Origin: a virus | Direction: 5' to 3' (one strand) | Virus record (IMG/VR): IMGVR_UViG_3300021957_005119 | Span: 1 to 20,842 of that record | DNA: 20,842 nucleotides | In this document: piece by piece, positions 7,354 through 18,812 of the stretch | How the letters are laid out: every line of letters starts with the position of its first letter | How positions within the stretch are numbered: the stretch's first letter is position 1 | Program-made: the position numbers and the translations under genes | Notes under the pieces: generated by a model | Database searches by the model: none | Seen by the model: the letters and a program-made list of their open reading frames with translations, nothing else | Told to the model about the DNA's origin: nothing

Positions 7354-8640
7354 ATGGACCTTTATCAACAATATATTCACAAATCACGTTATGCAAGATA
7401 TCTACCTGAACTAAAAAGAAGAGAACATTGGGATGAAACTGTTGATCGATTTGTGAGTTTTGTTGCTAGTAAAATCAGTAATAATGTTTTGACAACAGAA
7501 GTTAGAAATAATATTAAAAATGCTATTGTTGATATGAAAGTAATGCCCTCAATGAGAGCAATGATGACTGCAGGTCTTGCACTTGATAGAGATAACACTG
7601 CAGGATACAATTGTTCTTATCTACCAATTGATGATGCAAAAGCTTTTGATGAAGCAATGGTAATTCTTATGAATGGTACAGGTGTAGGATTTTCTGTTGA
7701 ACGACAATATGTAAATAAACTACCAGAAATTCCTGATGAAATCTATGATACAGATACAACTATCACTGTACGTGATTCAAAAGAAGGTTGGGGTAAAGCA
7801 CTACGTATGCTTATTGCTCTACTCTATTCTGGTGAATTACCAAAATGGGATCTTTCAAAACTTCGTTCTGCAGGAACAGTTCTAAAAACATTTGGTGGTC
7901 GTTCTTCTGGACCAGCACCACTAGATGAATTATTTCATTTTGTTGTAAATGTATTCAATGGTGCAAAAGGTAGAAAACTAACATCTATTGAATGTCACGA
8001 TATTATGTGTAAAATTGGTGAAGTAGTAGTTGTTGGTGGTGTTCGTCGTTCTGCTATGATTTCACTTTCAAATCTATCTGATGACCGTATGAGAAATGCT
8101 AAATCAGGTGCTTGGTGGGAACAAAATGTTCAACGAGCACTTTCAAATAATTCTGCTGTATATACCGAGAAACCAGATGTTCATCAGTTTATGCAAGAAT
8201 GGTTATCATTATATGAATCTAAATCAGGTGAACGTGGAATCTTCTCACGTGAAGCATCTAAAAATGTTTGTAAGAAAAATGGCAGACGTGACCCTGATCA
8301 TGATTTTGGAACTAATCCATGTTGTTTGCCTGGAGACACACAATTAAAAACACTTGAATATGGTCTAATAACAATTAAAGAAGTTGTAGAACTTATTGCT
8401 GATAATAAAGAAGTGACAGTTCTTTCACATAATTTGAATGATGGGGTTTCTGAATTTGTTCCTGTTGAAGCAGCAAAAATGACGAGACCTGATGCAGAAC
8501 TTATTGAACTTGAAATTGAAACTTTACATGGAACAAAAACACTAAAGTTGACTCCAGATCATAAAGTTTTTTCAAAAAATCGTGGTTATATTCGGGCAGA
8601 TGAATTGGATGAAAATGATGAACTGATTATTTCTGTGTAA
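7354..8640 (+). CDS. nrdJ: Class II ribonucleotide reductase, N-terminal half fused to N-intein
   Basis: Residues 1-323 are the N-extein of an adenosylcobalamin-dependent ribonucleotide reductase, which makes deoxynucleotides without oxygen. GYNCSYLPIDD with the conserved Cys, NGTGVGFSVERQYV, and GGVRRSAMISLSN are family hallmarks. The extein ends ...GTNPC at Cys323, which aligns with the thiyl-radical cysteine of class II reductases (NPCGEI). Cys324 onwards is the 105-residue N-intein. The partner half is at 9443-10471 and the spliced enzyme would be about 627 residues. GGAG lies before ATG 7354. CGT arginine codons are frequent, unlike in the endonuclease gene that follows. Confidence 0.95.
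   Translation: MDLYQQYIHKSRYARYLPELKRREHWDETVDRFVSFVASKISNNVLTTEVRNNIKNAIVDMKVMPSMRAMMTAGLALDRDNTAGYNCSYLPIDDAKAFDEAMVILMNGTGVGFSVERQYVNKLPEIPDEIYDTDTTITVRDSKEGWGKALRMLIALLYSGELPKWDLSKLRSAGTVLKTFGGRSSGPAPLDELFHFVVNVFNGAKGRKLTSIECHDIMCKIGEVVVVGGVRRSAMISLSNLSDDRMRNAKSGAWWEQNVQRALSNNSAVYTEKPDVHQFMQEWLSLYESKSGERGIFSREASKNVCKKNGRRDPDHDFGTNPCCLPGDTQLKTLEYGLITIKEVVELIADNKEVTVLSHNLNDGVSEFVPVEAAKMTRPDAELIELEIETLHGTKTLKLTPDHKVFSKNRGYIRADELDENDELIISV
8323..8637 (+). other. N-terminal half of a split intein (NrdJ-1 type)
   Basis: The segment encodes 105 residues from a catalytic Cys1 (CLPGDT, block A) to ADELDENDELIISV. Block B contains TPDH (Thr77, His80 of the intein). From memory of the NrdJ-1 split intein from marine metagenomes, the length, the TIKEVVE segment, the LTPDH/NRGYIRADEL stretch and the insertion point after NPC all agree. 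The frame ends in a stop directly after the split point, so splicing must occur in trans with the fragment at 9443-9556. Confidence 0.93.
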
Positions 8641-8652
8641 ACAATATTGAAA

Positions 8653-8707
8653 TCTTTTGAAGAAATCTTTGTTTTTATAAATACTACAAGGATTTCTTCC
8701 AAAGGAG
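8653..8707 (+). promoter_or_regulatory. RNA hairpin that would hide the endonuclease ribosome binding site
   Basis: Bases 8659-8667 pair perfectly with 8691-8699 (9 bp). After one mismatch (8658/8700), 8653-8657 pairs with 8701-8705, which is most of the AAAGGAG binding site (8701-8707) for ATG 8715. The 5' arm begins 12 bases after the NrdJ-N stop. Transcripts reading through from nrdJ would fold this stem and block endonuclease translation. A transcript starting at the late promoter within the loop would lack the 5' arm and be translatable. The pairing is seen; the switch is inferred by analogy with T4 I-TevI. Confidence 0.75.
8676..8683 (+). promoter_or_regulatory. T4-type late promoter (TATAAATA)
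   Basis: An exact TATAAATA lies in the gap between the NrdJ N-half and the endonuclease gene. In T4-like phages this octamer is recognised by the gp55 sigma factor, with transcription starting about six bases downstream, here near 8689. That would be inside the hairpin loop, after the 5' arm and before the 3' arm. Confidence 0.75.
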
Positions 8708-8714
8708 ATGGAAT

Positions 8715-9482
8715 ATGTTTACAGTAAACGACATTGAAAAATTTAATAAATGGTTTTCAACATACAAAAAACAGAAAAATTCAAGGAATAATTTTTCTAT
8801 TGGAAAAACTCAAAGAGAAATGTGGTTAGAACAGAATAAATGTCCAATAGAAGAAAAAATTGTTAAATTTTATAATAATGGTATTGGATATAAGAGACTG
8901 TGTAAAGAATTGAACATAAGTTATACTTCAAGTAGAAACTTGTTCAAGAAATTCGACAATATTAATGTCAGAACAGGGACTAATGTTGTTACTGACGAAT
9001 TGCGTAAAATACGATCAGAAAATGTAAAAGGGGAGAAATCTCCATTTTATGATTGGCCGAAACTAAGACCTAATTTAATGAAGACTAATGGAAAATCTAT
9101 ACAAGGATTTTATGAAAGAAAACATGATAAAAAAAAGGTTTGGTTAAGGTCAACATACGAATATATCTTTGCAAAATGGATTGATTGTCAGAATATTATA
9201 TGGTATATTGAGGAACAGTGTTTTGAATTAAAATCAGGTGAAAGATATAGACCAGATTTTTTTCTCTATGAAAATGATGTTTTAAAATCAATAGTAGAGG
9301 TAAAATCAAGATATTTTAATAAAGACAATAGAGAGTATAAATTTCACGAATTTAAAGAACAGTTTAACATAAATTGTATGTTAGTAACAGATATAAACAG
9401 GTTTATATCTGAAGACAGTAATTATCATAAGGAATTAAAAGAATGGAAACTATTACAGGAAAACTCAAATCAAAAAGAGTAG
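8715..9482 (+). CDS. Vsr-like (EDxHD-type) homing endonuclease inside the split nrdJ
   Basis: The 255-residue protein has a C-terminal Vsr/PD-(D/E)XK-like core: Glu149 in LRSTYEYIFAKWID, Trp163 and Glu166/167 in WYIEE, Asp181 in RYRPDFFL, and Glu195-x-Lys197 in SIVEVKSRY. The N-terminal half has a helix-turn-helix (about 47-80, GIGYKRLCKELNISYTSSRNL) and a NUMOD-like stretch around GEKSPFYDWPKLRP, typical DNA-binding parts. Homing endonucleases of this type were described in fractured genes with split inteins. Arginine codons are mostly AGA/AGG, while flanking nrdJ halves use CGT often, pointing to separate origin. Its last 40 bases overlap the start of the NrdJ C-half gene. AAAGGAG precedes the ATG. 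Confidence 0.88.
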   Translation: MFTVNDIEKFNKWFSTYKKQKNSRNNFSIGKTQREMWLEQNKCPIEEKIVKFYNNGIGYKRLCKELNISYTSSRNLFKKFDNINVRTGTNVVTDELRKIRSENVKGEKSPFYDWPKLRPNLMKTNGKSIQGFYERKHDKKKVWLRSTYEYIFAKWIDCQNIIWYIEEQCFELKSGERYRPDFFLYENDVLKSIVEVKSRYFNKDNREYKFHEFKEQFNINCMLVTDINRFISEDSNYHKELKEWKLLQENSNQKE

Positions 9483-9556
9483 TAACAAACGAAGATACGT
9501 ATGATATTCAAACAGAAAATAATAATTTTTACGCAAATGATGTTCTTGTTCACAAT
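9443..9556 (+). other. C-terminal half of the split intein
   Basis: The 38-residue fragment begins METITGKLKSK, has EDTYDIQT and NNNFYANDVLVHN (blocks F and G, with penultimate His and terminal Asn), and is followed by Ser as the +1 extein residue at 9557-9559. Length and pattern match the C-fragment of NrdJ-1. Ser as nucleophile is compatible with the Cys1 class I splicing pathway. Confidence 0.93.
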
Positions 9557-10471
9557 TCCGAAATTATTCTACGTCCATACCAATTCTGTAATCTTACAGA
9601 GGTTATTGCTCGTGCAGATGATACAGAAAATGATTTGATTGAAAAGGTAAAACTTGCAGCGATTCTTGGAACTATTCAATCTACTTTTACTAACTTTCCA
9701 TATCTAAGAAAGATTTGGAAAAAGAATACTGAGGAAGAAAGATTGCTTGGTGTTTCTATTACTGGTATCTATGATTGTCCTTTATTGAATGATTACAAAG
9801 ATCCATCATTACCAGGACGATTAGAGATGTTGCGTCAAGTTGCTATTGATACTAATAAAGAATTTGCTGAAATGTTAGGTATTCCACAATCTGCTTCTGT
9901 TACATGCGTCAAACCATCAGGCACAGTCTCTCAGTTAACAGATTCTGCTTCTGGTATTCACGCAAGACACGATCCATATTATTATCGTCGTGTTCGTAAT
10001 GATAATAAAGACCCATTGACACAATTTCTTATTGATGCAGGTGTTCCAAATGAACCAGATGTAACTAAACCAAATGCAACTACTGTATTTACATTTCCAA
10101 AGAAAGCACCAGAAAGTGCATTATCAAGAGGTGATATTTCTGCAATTGATCATCTAGAACTTTGGTTGATGTATCAAAGACATTGGTGTGAACATAAACC
10201 TTCTGTTACTATTTCAGTAAAAGAAAATGAATGGCCAACAGTTGGAGCTTGGGTTTGGGAACATTTTGATGAAATGTCTGGTGTATCTTTCTTACCTCAT
10301 GATGGTGGAACATATCGACAAGCACCATATGAAACAGTATCAGAGGAAAAGTATAATGAATTACTAGAAACTATGCCAGAAAGCTTTGATTGGACTTCAT
10401 TCGAAGAGAATCAAGATAATGTGGAAGGAGCACAGACATTAGCTTGTACAGCAGATAACTGTGAAATCTAG
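9443..10471 (+). CDS. nrdJ: C-intein fused to class II ribonucleotide reductase, C-terminal half
   Basis: Residues 1-38 are the C-intein, ending VHN; the C-extein begins SEIILRPYQFCNLTE, continuing the NPC/SEI active-site motif with its catalytic glutamate. The rest carries CVKPSGTVSQLTDSASGIHARH (phosphate-binding and barrel region), and a C-terminal CTADNCEI cysteine pair that matches the reducing Cys pair of class II enzymes. After trans-splicing, 304 residues join to the 323 of the N-half. The start ATG lies inside the endonuclease gene, with AAGGA at 9429-9433 upstream, so it has its own binding site. A strong terminator follows the stop within five bases. Confidence 0.95.
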   Translation: METITGKLKSKRVVTNEDTYDIQTENNNFYANDVLVHNSEIILRPYQFCNLTEVIARADDTENDLIEKVKLAAILGTIQSTFTNFPYLRKIWKKNTEEERLLGVSITGIYDCPLLNDYKDPSLPGRLEMLRQVAIDTNKEFAEMLGIPQSASVTCVKPSGTVSQLTDSASGIHARHDPYYYRRVRNDNKDPLTQFLIDAGVPNEPDVTKPNATTVFTFPKKAPESALSRGDISAIDHLELWLMYQRHWCEHKPSVTISVKENEWPTVGAWVWEHFDEMSGVSFLPHDGGTYRQAPYETVSEEKYNELLETMPESFDWTSFEENQDNVEGAQTLACTADNCEI

Positions 10472-11397: not shown

Positions 11398-11426
11398 ATA
11401 ATACCATTGATGAAAGGATGGTATTA
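11393..11426 (+). promoter_or_regulatory. Hairpin with late-promoter-like box ahead of a GIY-YIG endonuclease
   Basis: Bases 11399-11407 pair perfectly with 11418-11426 (9 bp); the 10-base loop holds AAAGG at 11413-11417, the binding site for ATG 11426, and the A of the ATG closes the stem. AATAAATA at 11393-11400 differs from the T4 late consensus in the first base; initiation about six bases downstream (near 11406) would remove most of the 5' arm. The layout resembles those at 8653 and 16777. The promoter call is weaker because of the mismatch. Confidence 0.5.
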
Positions 11427-11821
11427 TGTGGTTATATAATAATAAAGATATTACTGAAGATGATATAAAAGGTTATGTTGGTTTTGTTTATCTAATTGAA
11501 AATTTAGACAATAATATGTACTATATTGGTAAGAAATCACTAAAAAAAACAAAAGTATATCAGAAGAATAAAAAGAAAAAAAGAATGCTTGTTGAATCGG
11601 ATTGGAAAGACTATACTGGTTCTAACGACTTACTAAATGAACACATTGAATCTGGTAATAAAATAAGAAAAACAATAATCAGAATGTGTAGGAACAAAAC
11701 TGAGATGAGTTATTATGAAGCAAAAGAACAATTTTCTCGTGATGTTCTGCTTGATAAAAACTCATATAACCAATGGATAATGGTGAGAGCAAGAAAGTCT
11801 AATTTAATGATTGACAAATAG
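11426..11821 (+). CDS. GIY-YIG endonuclease, free-standing (131 aa)
   Basis: The GIY-YIG core is visible: GFVYLI at 19-24, MYYIGKK at 31-37, basic residues around Arg82-Arg86, and the metal-binding Glu98 in YYEAKEQF. This family makes nicks or double-strand breaks; T4 seg genes are relatives. There is no extra DNA-binding domain after the core beyond a short basic tail, so it is a minimal form. It lies between an acidic small gene and a new promoter, and does not visibly split a gene. Arginine codons are mostly AGA. It sits behind a hairpin with a late-promoter-like box, as do the other two endonuclease genes. Mobility is inferred, not shown. Confidence 0.8.
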   Translation: MWLYNNKDITEDDIKGYVGFVYLIENLDNNMYYIGKKSLKKTKVYQKNKKKKRMLVESDWKDYTGSNDLLNEHIESGNKIRKTIIRMCRNKTEMSYYEAKEQFSRDVLLDKNSYNQWIMVRARKSNLMIDK

Positions 11822-15521: not shown

Positions 15522-16775
15522 ATGTCCAAATTCTATACGAATGTTTTCTCTCGGGGGAACAAGGTTTACGTTCGTGGATATGAGAACGGTAAAGCATTTC
15601 AAAAATATGAATATTATAAACCATATTTGTTTGTTGATGACAAGGATGGTAACTATAAAACTGTAGATAAAAAACCAGCTTCAAAGATAATGTTTAACAG
15701 CATTTCTGAAGCAAGAGAATTTGTCAGCAAATATAAAGATATACAAAATTTCAACTATTATGGGTTGGAGAATTTTCAGTATTTATATATCTATGATAAT
15801 TATTCTGGTGATGTGCAATATGATCCATCAAAGATGTCTGTTGTATCTCTTGATATTGAATGTATTGCCGATCAAGGATTTCCAGATATACAACTAGCAG
15901 ATAAAGAAATAACTGCCATCACCATCAGAAAGAATAAATTGAATTTGGTGTTTGGCTGTGGTGAGTTTGTAACTGATGATCCCAACACAAAATACTTTAG
16001 ATGTAAAGATGAGAAAGAACTTCTTTATAAGTTTGTTGATATTTGGAATCGTCCTTTTGTTAAACCAGATATTATAACTGGTTGGAACATAGAGTTTTTT
16101 GATATTCCATATCTAATAAACCGTATTCGTAATATCTGTGGTGAAGATCTTGCAAAGAATTTGTCTCCTTGGAGAATGATTAATGAAGGCAAGGTTCATT
16201 ACAAAGGCAAAGAGAATCAAAATTTTGTTCTGGTGGGAATATCAACACTTGATTATTACCAGTTATATCGTAAGTTTACTTTTGGTAATCAGGAGAGTTA
16301 TAAACTTGACTATATTGCATCAGTAGAACTTGGTGAGAAGAAAATTGATTATTCTGAATATGGTTCTTTGTTAGAATTGTATAAGAATAATTTTCAAAAG
16401 TTTATTGAATATAATATTCACGATGTTGTTCTTGTTGATAGGTTGGAAGAAAAACTTAAGTTTATTGAACAAGTAATGGCACTTGCATATGATGCAAAAG
16501 TAAACTTTGTTGATACTCTTACAACAGTTCGACCTTGGGATGTTATTATTCACAACTACCTATTGGATAGAAAAACAGTTGTACCTAAACTTGTCATAAA
16601 AGATAATAATGAAAGTTTGGTTGGTGGTTTTGTGAAAGATCCAAAAGTTGGTATGAGTGAATGGGTTGTATCTTTTGATGTCAACAGTATGTATCCAAAT
16701 TGTATTATTCAGAATAATATAGGTCCTGAAACAAGAGTAACAAAAAAAGATTTACTTAGTATGTTAAGTGAGTGA
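15522..16775 (+). CDS. 43A: DNA polymerase gp43, N-terminal half (exonuclease and motif A)
   Basis: This 417-residue product is the N-terminal half of a T4-type family B polymerase. The 3'-5' exonuclease is complete: Asp111 and Glu113 in SLDIECIAD (Exo I), TGWNIEFFDIPYLINR (Exo II) and NIHDVVLVDRLE (Exo III). Polymerase motif A, FDVNSMYPNCI, follows near the end. The frame stops at 16775, soon after NNIGPETRVTKK, which corresponds to NISPET in T4. The remaining palm, fingers and thumb are on a separate gene at 17484. No intein or intron boundary is visible, so the enzyme is presumably assembled from two chains. GAAAG precedes the start. Confidence 0.93.
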   Translation: MSKFYTNVFSRGNKVYVRGYENGKAFQKYEYYKPYLFVDDKDGNYKTVDKKPASKIMFNSISEAREFVSKYKDIQNFNYYGLENFQYLYIYDNYSGDVQYDPSKMSVVSLDIECIADQGFPDIQLADKEITAITIRKNKLNLVFGCGEFVTDDPNTKYFRCKDEKELLYKFVDIWNRPFVKPDIITGWNIEFFDIPYLINRIRNICGEDLAKNLSPWRMINEGKVHYKGKENQNFVLVGISTLDYYQLYRKFTFGNQESYKLDYIASVELGEKKIDYSEYGSLLELYKNNFQKFIEYNIHDVVLVDRLEEKLKFIEQVMALAYDAKVNFVDTLTTVRPWDVIIHNYLLDRKTVVPKLVIKDNNESLVGGFVKDPKVGMSEWVVSFDVNSMYPNCIIQNNIGPETRVTKKDLLSMLSE

Positions 16776-16776
16776 A

Positions 16777-16815
16777 TTCTATAAATAGATTAGGATAATA
16801 ACCACATTTATAGAA
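16777..16815 (+). promoter_or_regulatory. RNA hairpin over the GIY-YIG gene ribosome binding site
   Basis: Bases 16777-16786 pair perfectly with 16806-16815 (10 bp) around a 19-base loop. The 5' arm starts one base after the polymerase N-half stop, and the 3' arm runs into the AGAAAG binding site (16812-16817) for ATG 16826. The late promoter lies within the 5' arm, so late transcripts would lack it. The pairing is seen; repression is inferred. Confidence 0.7.
16780..16787 (+). promoter_or_regulatory. T4-type late promoter (TATAAATA)
   Basis: An exact late-promoter octamer between the polymerase N-half and the endonuclease gene. Expected initiation near 16793 falls in the hairpin loop, so the late mRNA would leave the ribosome binding site free. 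Confidence 0.75.
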
Positions 16816-16825
16816 AGATTTTAAT

Positions 16826-17491
16826 ATGAAAGAATGTTTTGTTTATGGGTTGTACGACCCAAATACAAATGAAATTTTTTATGTAGGAAAAGGATCAGGA
16901 TATAGAGATAAGTGTCACTTAAAACCTAGTTCTTGGCAAGAACCAAAAAAAACTTGTAATCCTTTTCTTTATTATAAAATAAAAAATCTAATGGAAAATA
17001 ATACACCACCTGAAACAAAAAAATTAAAAGAAAATTTATCTGAGGAAGAAGCATATCAATATGAAAATGAACTTATAAAAAAGCATGGAAGAAGGTTTTC
17101 TGAAGAAAATGGGAAACTTTTTAATATATCAGAATATAAAGGGGGTTCTAACATTGGTATCTCTAAACCATGGACAGATGAAAGATTAAAAAAACATATT
17201 GAGCAATCAAGAAAAAAAAGAAAGTATGATCCAGAATATGAAGAACTTTATGATGATTACATAATTCAAAGAAAAACTAGAAAGGAAATAGCAAAAGAAA
17301 ATGGATGTAGTGAAGTTTTAGTAAAAAAAAGATTATCTGAATTAGGAATATTTAAACCAAAAGAAAAACAATATCCAAAAAAGAGAAAATTTTCTTGTAA
17401 AAAATGTCAAAAGATGATATATGTACCAAAATCATGTAATACTAAAAAATATTGTTCTAGAAATTGTTATTTAGAGGATAGATATGGATAA
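16826..17491 (+). CDS. GIY-YIG homing endonuclease splitting the polymerase gene
   Basis: The 221-residue protein has a GIY-YIG nuclease domain (CFVYGLYDP at 4-12, IFYVGKG at 17-23, and the metal-binding glutamate in YENELIKKHG at about 79-88), a basic linker, a helix-turn-helix (about 148-175, RKTRKEIAKENGCSEVLVKKRL), and a C-terminal zinc finger (Cys191, Cys194, Cys204, Cys210, with Cys214). This is a typical homing endonuclease with a modular DNA-binding tail. Arginine codons are almost all AGA/AGG, while the flanking polymerase halves mix in CGT. It is free-standing: it ends in ATGGATAA, overlapping the C-half start by 8 bases, which leaves no space for an intron 3' end. Confidence 0.9.
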   Translation: MKECFVYGLYDPNTNEIFYVGKGSGYRDKCHLKPSSWQEPKKTCNPFLYYKIKNLMENNTPPETKKLKENLSEEEAYQYENELIKKHGRRFSEENGKLFNISEYKGGSNIGISKPWTDERLKKHIEQSRKKRKYDPEYEELYDDYIIQRKTRKEIAKENGCSEVLVKKRLSELGIFKPKEKQYPKKRKFSCKKCQKMIYVPKSCNTKKYCSRNCYLEDRYG

Positions 17492-18812
17492 AAAAGAGGC
17501 AATAGAATTCTTACTACAGAATATGTCAGAAAATTCTGTTGTCAATGGTGTTACCCCAGAAAGTATATTGAAAAATGATATAGATCCTAGAATATTAGAT
17601 GCCTGTAAAATATTAAATTTTACGATTACTGCCAATGGAACTTTATATAAAAATGAAAAACAAAGTTTTTTTGGTGAAATAGTTCAAAAAATGTATAACA
17701 GTCGTCAAAAATATAAACAAGAAATGATTGAAGCAAAGAAGAAATTTGAAATTTCTAAATCTGTTAAAGATTTAAATGATGTTTCTAAGTTACACAATCT
17801 TCAACTGGCAAAAAAAATTCAATTAAATTCTTTGTATGGTGCTATTGCAAATGTTTATTGTAGATGGCACAATTTTCATCACGCAGAATCTATTACTAAG
17901 TCTGGGCAACTTTCTATTCGTTGGATTGAAAAACGAATGAATGAGTTTATGAATAAAATGTTAAAGACTGATAATGTTGACTATGTTATAGCATCTGATA
18001 CAGACTCAATCTATATTGAAATGAAAGAACTTGTAAAACGAATTGATGTAAATGATGATGTCAAGATTGTGTCAGCAATAGATCAATTTTGTGAGCAGAA
18101 GATTCAACCATATCTTGACAAATGTTATCAAGAACTTGCTGATTATATGAATGTATATCAGCAGAAGATGTTTATGAAACGTGAAACTATTGCTAATAAA
18201 GGCATTTGGAAAGCAAAGAAGATGTATATTCTAAATGCTTGGAATGTTGAAGGTGTTCAATATGATTCACCTAAGTTAAAAATGCAGGGTATTGAAGCAG
18301 TTCGTTCATCAACACCACAGGTTTGTAGAGAATATATTCGCAAAGCACTTGAGATTATTATGAATGAAAGCGAAATATCTTTACAAAACTATATCTCACA
18401 AATAAGAGAAGAGTATAAAAATCTTCCATTTGACGATATTGCTTTTCCTCGTGGAGCAAATAATGTTGACAAATATTATGATAGAAGTCGCATATATGTG
18501 AAAGGAACACCCATTCACATTAAAGCATCTTTGTTGTATAATAATTTGCTGAAAAAGTATGGATTGAGAAATCTACAACCAATAATGAGTGGTGATAAAA
18601 TTAAGTATTGTTATTTAAAACTACCAAATAAAATACAAGACACCGTAATTTCTAACCTAGATAATTTGCCTGATGAGTTGGGATTAAACCAATATATTGA
18701 TTATGAAAAACAATTCGATAAATCTTTTATAGAACCACTAAAATCTATTACAAGTATTATTAGGTGGGATTATGAGAAGAAACTAACATTGGAGGATTTT
18801 TTTAATGTCTGA
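17484..18812 (+). CDS. 43B: DNA polymerase gp43, C-terminal half (motifs B and C)
   Basis: The 442-residue product supplies the fingers, rest of the palm, and thumb: motif B KKIQLNSLYGAIANV at about 110-124, motif C ASDTDSIYIEM with Asp172 and Asp174, then the KxY-type KKMYILNAW region. NGTLYKNEKQSFFGEIVQKMYNSRQKYK near 51-78 matches the T4 stretch after the palm start. With the 417-residue N-half the total is 859, close to T4 gp43 (898), so little or nothing is missing. GAGGA at 17475-17479 gives it its own binding site, so it does not need endonuclease translation. The C-terminal LTLEDFFNV could be the clamp-binding tail. Confidence 0.93.
   Translation: MDKKEAIEFLLQNMSENSVVNGVTPESILKNDIDPRILDACKILNFTITANGTLYKNEKQSFFGEIVQKMYNSRQKYKQEMIEAKKKFEISKSVKDLNDVSKLHNLQLAKKIQLNSLYGAIANVYCRWHNFHHAESITKSGQLSIRWIEKRMNEFMNKMLKTDNVDYVIASDTDSIYIEMKELVKRIDVNDDVKIVSAIDQFCEQKIQPYLDKCYQELADYMNVYQQKMFMKRETIANKGIWKAKKMYILNAWNVEGVQYDSPKLKMQGIEAVRSSTPQVCREYIRKALEIIMNESEISLQNYISQIREEYKNLPFDDIAFPRGANNVDKYYDRSRIYVKGTPIHIKASLLYNNLLKKYGLRNLQPIMSGDKIKYCYLKLPNKIQDTVISNLDNLPDELGLNQYIDYEKQFDKSFIEPLKSITSIIRWDYEKKLTLEDFFNV

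Follow-up and report, generated by a model that had tools for sequence, protein, structure and literature searches.

A predicted late-promoter hairpin carrying an insertion half-site copy ahead of a split-intein endonuclease gene

In an uncultured phage, the endonuclease gene lying within the split ribonucleotide reductase gene nrdJ is preceded by a computed RNA hairpin that covers its ribosome binding site (RBS), holds a match to the T4-type late promoter in its loop and has as its 3' arm a copy of half of the intein insertion site. These features recur across a family of related loci from T4-related marine phages. We infer from them that transcription starts late near position 8689, that the RBS is blocked in vivo and that the enzyme represses itself. 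On balance, it is probable that the leader superimposes the two layers of an I-TevI-type double control, late-only translation and autorepression, on a PD-(D/E)XK endonuclease of a split intein.

On readthrough RNA from nrdJ, a 20-bp hairpin would hide the Shine-Dalgarno sequence and an outer stem the AUG, so that early in infection NrdJ would be produced with hardly any translation of the endonuclease. Later, TATAAATA in the loop would direct transcription from about 8689 and give RNA missing the 5' arm, from which the endonuclease would be translated. The enzyme should then bind the half-site copy in the 3' arm, where there is no complete target for cleavage, and turn off the late promoter of its own gene. 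Late-only translation is the most likely reading of the computed structure and the well-matched promoter; self-limitation by the half-site copy is likewise most likely, judged from sequence similarity and analogy.

Both control layers are already known from T4. In the td intron, the I-TevI RBS is held in a hairpin only on early and middle readthrough RNA, the late RNA being without the inhibitory structure (PMC2988022, PMC3014915), and an operator over the late promoter, similar to the homing site at 15 of 20 positions, is bound and not efficiently cut (PMC2988022). The leader described here resembles that of I-TevI in its predicted RBS hairpin, in a late promoter whose use would delete the 5' arm and in a homing-site-like sequence over the late start. 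It differs in its PD-(D/E)XK enzyme, in belonging to a split intein where I-TevI belongs to a group I intron, and in using the operator-like copy itself as the arm over the RBS. The free-standing endonuclease genes mobE of Aeromonas phage Aeh1 and segB of T4 also combine an RBS hairpin with a late promoter (PMC2988022); mobE shares the location inside a ribonucleotide reductase gene, but these enzymes are of the HNH and GIY-YIG classes and no split intein is involved. In the leader of the T4 lysozyme gene e, TATAAATA lies in the 5' part of an inhibitory hairpin that the late RNA escapes (PMC3014915), although gene e is not a homing endonuclease and its leader has no target-site copy.

The double control of I-TevI was thus known before for intron-borne and free-standing GIY-YIG and HNH endonucleases of T4 relatives. 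What the present leader adds is its nuclease family, its association with split inteins, its recurrence throughout a family of loci and the fusion of operator and RBS hairpin into a single element. That the same logic appears with an unrelated nuclease inside split inteins, in dozens of diverged phages, suggests that homing endonucleases generally need late-only, self-limited expression and that such control has arisen repeatedly. The leader also gives a concrete target-site prediction for an uncharacterised endonuclease family.

The split nrdJ gene and its endonuclease

The window, that is, the whole stretch of DNA analysed, is the 20,842-base record of an uncultured phage whose UvsX has its closest cultured counterpart in phage C48C1 of the Kyanoviridae (64% identical). 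Its nrdJ gene is split into an N half fused to an N-intein fragment, followed by the endonuclease gene and then by a C-intein fragment fused to the C half (Table 1). The N half matches the PHROG ribonucleotide reductase profile (1.4e-98), and the N-intein fragment matches the NrdJ-1 split intein (8ubs_A, E 1.9e-33). An endonuclease gene flanked by the two halves of a split intein is the arrangement reportedly described as 'fractured genes' by Dassa et al. in 2009 (cited in PMC3653736); the gene order here is the same, and the intein fragment is of NrdJ-1 type. The endonuclease family of that work is said to carry the motif EDxHD, which seems different from the E/PD/ExK pattern found here, and we know of no regulatory hairpin or operator from it.

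The endonuclease was assigned, at superfamily level and from weak matches, as a probable helix-turn-helix (HTH) plus PD-(D/E)XK protein. Its fold hits are TnsA and other PD-(D/E)XK proteins with low TM scores, and its profile match to phage endonuclease I is weak. Within the pattern E149, P180-D181, E195-x-K197, the residues E149, P180-D181, E195 and K197 are invariant in 13 aligned sequences. The GIY-YIG class was considered and rejected, as the protein has no such catalytic domain and both Pfam and fold indicate PD-(D/E)XK. The first-pass annotation had spoken of a nuclease family different from that of I-TevI, and an HTH plus PD-(D/E)XK architecture, neither GIY-YIG nor HNH, bears this out. 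No cultured relative of the endonuclease was found among 50,697 phage records, and no relative was found in bacterial or archaeal genomes.

The near-invariant C-terminal motif of the endonuclease, K-E-L-K-E-W-K, encodes in another frame the Shine-Dalgarno sequence and ATG of the nrdJ C half. In most loci where the motif can be recognised, the C-half ATG has an identical offset, and this end is also retained in L059, a degraded remnant of the endonuclease. Since the C-half start lies inside the endonuclease gene, ribosomes translating the endonuclease would cross it. Early silence of the endonuclease may therefore protect NrdJ production, much as keeping I-TevI repressed safeguards td splicing (PMC2988022), and the proposed scheme predicts how both halves of a fractured gene can be produced without expression of the parasite lying between them.

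Table 1 Features of the nrdJ-endonuclease region, in window coordinates
Feature	Position	Strand	Basis or remark
nrdJ (class II ribonucleotide reductase) N half fused to N-terminal split-intein fragment	7354..8640	+	ORF; ribonucleotide reductase and intein-splicing Pfam hits
Left (N-extein) half of intein insertion site, TTTGGAACTAATCCATGT; presumed target half-site	8305..8322	+	codons F-G-T-N-P-C
5' strand of outer stem	8640..8648	+	pairs with 8712-8719, takes in AUG
5' arm of predicted RBS-sequestering stem	8653..8672	+	fold, inverted repeat, pair list
TATAAATA, T4-type late promoter sequence	8676..8683	+	in 13-nt hairpin loop; predicted start about 8689
3' arm of stem	8686..8706	+	inverted repeat, pair list
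Operator-like half-site copy, TTTGGAAGAAATCCTTGT	8686..8703	-	15/18; overlaps predicted late start, forms most of 3' arm
Shine-Dalgarno AAGGAG of endonuclease gene	8702..8707	+	7 nt before ATG
Endonuclease gene, homing-type	8715..9482	+	helical/HTH N-terminal part, PD-(D/E)XK nuclease part
Shine-Dalgarno AAGGA and ATG of nrdJ C half	9429..9445	+	embedded in endonuclease codons K-E-L-K-E-W-K
C-terminal split-intein fragment (9443-9556) fused to nrdJ C-terminal half	9443..10471	+	ORF

The hairpin and the promoter in its loop

Folding of positions 8640-8725 (86 nt) gave a minimum free energy of -23.3 kcal/mol, compared with -11.6 +/- 2.7 for shuffled sequences (z -4.29), and none of 200 shuffles was as good. 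Positions 8653-8659 pair with 8700-8706 and positions 8660-8672 with 8686-8698, most with pair probabilities >0.84. The resulting stem has 19-20 bp, with one unpaired base (C8699 and C8700 compete for G8659) and one wobble, U8668-G8690. An ungapped inverted repeat of 19 nt (8654-8672/8686-8704) had the best score, 14.0, against a shuffled maximum of 10.0. A 14-bp stem joining 8653-8667 to 8691-8705 had been annotated at first; its register, with 8667 opposite 8691, was right, but the stem extends to 20 bp and 8653 has 8706 as its partner, not 8705. That the stem covers most of AAAGGAG, as also proposed, agrees with the mean unpaired probability of 8701-8707, which is 0.18 in readthrough RNA and 0.59 in RNA from 8689.

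The late promoter match was likewise correctly placed in the loop. Its predicted start, six bases past TATAAATA, yields a computed RNA that lacks 8653-8672, in keeping with the proposal that initiation there deletes the 5' arm. By computation, opening the start region costs 12.2 kcal/mol on readthrough RNA and 3.1 on RNA from 8689. With the sequence upstream of the predicted start shuffled, the cost was 5.9 +/- 1.6, and 12.2 was reached in 0 of 60 trials, which gives computational support to the idea of a silent readthrough RNA and an active late RNA. A ribosome terminating on nrdJ is not expected to open the stem, which starts 13 nt past that gene's stop codon. A stable hairpin between genes might also serve as a terminator, attenuator or RNA-processing element between the nrdJ N half and the endonuclease gene; this is extremely unlikely, as no T-run follows the stem, no terminator was called there and an Rfam search of the hairpin returned chance-level scores only, with no family above threshold.

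Late promoters of marine T4-like phages read NATAAATA/TATAAATA (PMC2984593). The window holds six copies of TATAAATA against 4.2 expected, and three of the four plus-strand copies are intergenic, although intergenic sequence makes up 1253 bases, or 6%, of the window. In the genome of phage C48C1 the motif is enriched (22 versus 3), whereas most AT-rich contigs of the relatives show no genome-wide enrichment of it. A second copy of the motif, at 16780, precedes a GIY-YIG gene (16826-17491) that splits the DNA polymerase B gene (15522-18812); we considered the same hairpin arrangement there and rejected it, since the promoter matches and the fold is not significant (z -0.31). A third homing-type gene in the same 20.8 kb encodes a SegE-like GIY-YIG protein (11426-11821).

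Recurrence of the leader among related loci

Relatives were collected by three protein searches and two alignment searches of viral contigs, and clustering by upstream sequence gave 58 loci, 56 of them usable. Start codons were picked by Shine-Dalgarno match and expected length, with structure ignored. Nearly all of these 56 non-redundant endonuclease loci lie between split-intein halves in a ribonucleotide reductase gene. The median opening cost was 11.6 kcal/mol at the 56 endonuclease starts versus 4.2 at 123 other starts of the same loci (Mann-Whitney p=5e-18). We observed TATAAATA within 100 bases upstream in 18 of the 56 loci, most often at -24 to -45, where control windows predict 0.9, an enrichment of about 20-fold. 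The remaining 38 loci are without an exact TATAAATA, and many have TAYTTATA in or near the loop instead. The variants TATTTATA and TACTTATA occur in 11 and 7 loci, respectively, against 0.4 and 0.2 expected; TAYTTATA, like TATAAATA, has no whole-contig enrichment in the AT-rich contigs of the relatives. One or other variant replaces TATAAATA in the loop of L042, L043, L046, L060, L061, L161, L189, L194 and L211.

Thirteen loci have a predicted late start before the start region. Their mean opening cost was 11.3 on readthrough RNA, 5.4 with the upstream sequence shuffled and 3.4 on late RNA, and at 11 of these 13 testable loci at most 1 of 60 shuffles reached the real blocking value, indicating that it is the upstream sequence that blocks the RBS. 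The first-pass annotation had looked for stem pairing to be kept in relatives. It is kept widely, with different sequences, but not everywhere: L056 and L141 have little or no late-dependent blocking, and in L012, the nearest distinct relative (endonuclease ~52% identical), the main local stem lies downstream of TATAAATA and the late transcript retains part of it, opening cost going from 9.5 to 5.3. Leader geometry varies throughout, some close relatives being without the exact arrangement.

Stem lengths and loops are too varied for a covariance model, and an arm-swap test was used in its place. Arms from the same locus paired better than swapped arms (p=3e-7), and for the window none of the 55 swaps did as well as the native arms. 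The only leader relatives of the window's own stem are near-identical copies, hence fine-scale covariation is absent for this stem. In the group of L060, changes on both sides can be seen by eye; the alignment misplaces the 5' arm there, and we claim no formal pair count. Split-intein loci without an intact endonuclease carried neither TATAAATA nor the half-site core described below, which indicates that the leader travels with the endonuclease.

The insertion half-site copy in the 3' arm

Read as its reverse complement, the 3' arm copies the left half of the nrdJ insertion site, a resemblance that the first-pass annotation overlooked and that probably adds an operator to the switch, by sequence likeness and analogy with I-TevI. 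When the window was searched with TTTGGAACTAATCCATGT, allowing up to 3 mismatches, the sole other match was the minus-strand copy at 8686-8703 (15/18), where 0.04 would be expected in 20.8 kb. We take the insertion site to be the enzyme's target from how homing works.

The same core recurs in the family. CANGGRTT, the reverse complement of the Asn-Pro-Cys codons, is present near the start in 32 of the 56 loci versus 0.5 expected, and the direct form AAYCCNTG in 17 of the 56 versus 0.3; scrambled core patterns were found in 0-1 loci. An initial test with 13-base windows across the whole junction was weak per locus, and the signal became clear with the core pattern and the left half alone. In the 48 loci for which the insertion site could be defined, the left half scored above controls (p=9e-8), and the right half no better than controls (p=0.39). 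Scrambled 18-mers scored 9.84 versus 11.29. Copying of the left half alone is compatible with the predicted lack of cutting at the operator. The copy is weakly nearer to its own locus's site than to those of other loci (p=0.11 in the window's group, 0.02 in the other group). Where TATAAATA and the core are close together, the core begins ~3-5 bases past TATAAATA and thus lies on the predicted start.

The copy could be read as a scar, left when the endonuclease gene inserted at a target-like site and now without function. Invasion by a mobile gene could leave target-like sequence beside it, but we regard this as very unlikely, given that highly diverged loci retain the copy in comparable positions and that split-intein loci without the endonuclease lack it.

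An RNA switch alone, as in I-TevI or mobE, would account for hairpin, promoter and RBS without a repressor, the resemblance of arm and site being a by-product, for example of convergence, GGATT serving as a Shine-Dalgarno sequence; stems without the Asn-Pro-Cys core do exist (L042, L043, L061). This explanation is nevertheless unlikely. The 15/18 copy includes TTTGGAA, which lies outside any RBS function, the copy is well clear of the RBS in L014, L028, L151 and L187, at -35 to -67, and copying is limited to the left half.

Conversely, the inverted repeat might act only on DNA, as a pair of endonuclease binding sites around the promoter, with the RNA hairpin as the by-product. Both arms are half-site-like in many relatives (L169, L171, L196, L202), yet the stems reach beyond the core and vary in sequence from locus to locus, each arm pairing best with its own partner, and the RBS is also hidden by coreless stems (L042, L061). 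In the window, the 5' arm has diverged from the site and still pairs through G-U, and G-T makes up 18 of the 43 non-Watson-Crick oppositions in the arms. A purely DNA-level role therefore appears quite improbable.

Because the Asn-Pro-Cys codons of ribonucleotide reductase read GGATT in reverse, the presumed target sequence can fill both roles. Extended to the whole family, the proposal is that the half-site copy is a dual element, a DNA operator over the late start and an RNA arm that hides the Shine-Dalgarno sequence and, in some members, supplies it; we put this tentatively, at somewhat short of an even chance. At some loci the copy stands a long way upstream of the RBS, its pairing partner being the initial codons. 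In L014, L151, L186 and L187 the endonuclease itself starts with N-P-W-like codons that copy the half-site (AATCCATGG), paired with an upstream reverse copy, and in L013 the endonuclease is preceded, at positions 1370-1530, by about four tandem copies of a GTATGTACCACAGGGATTAAAGAC-like sequence that includes the half-site core.
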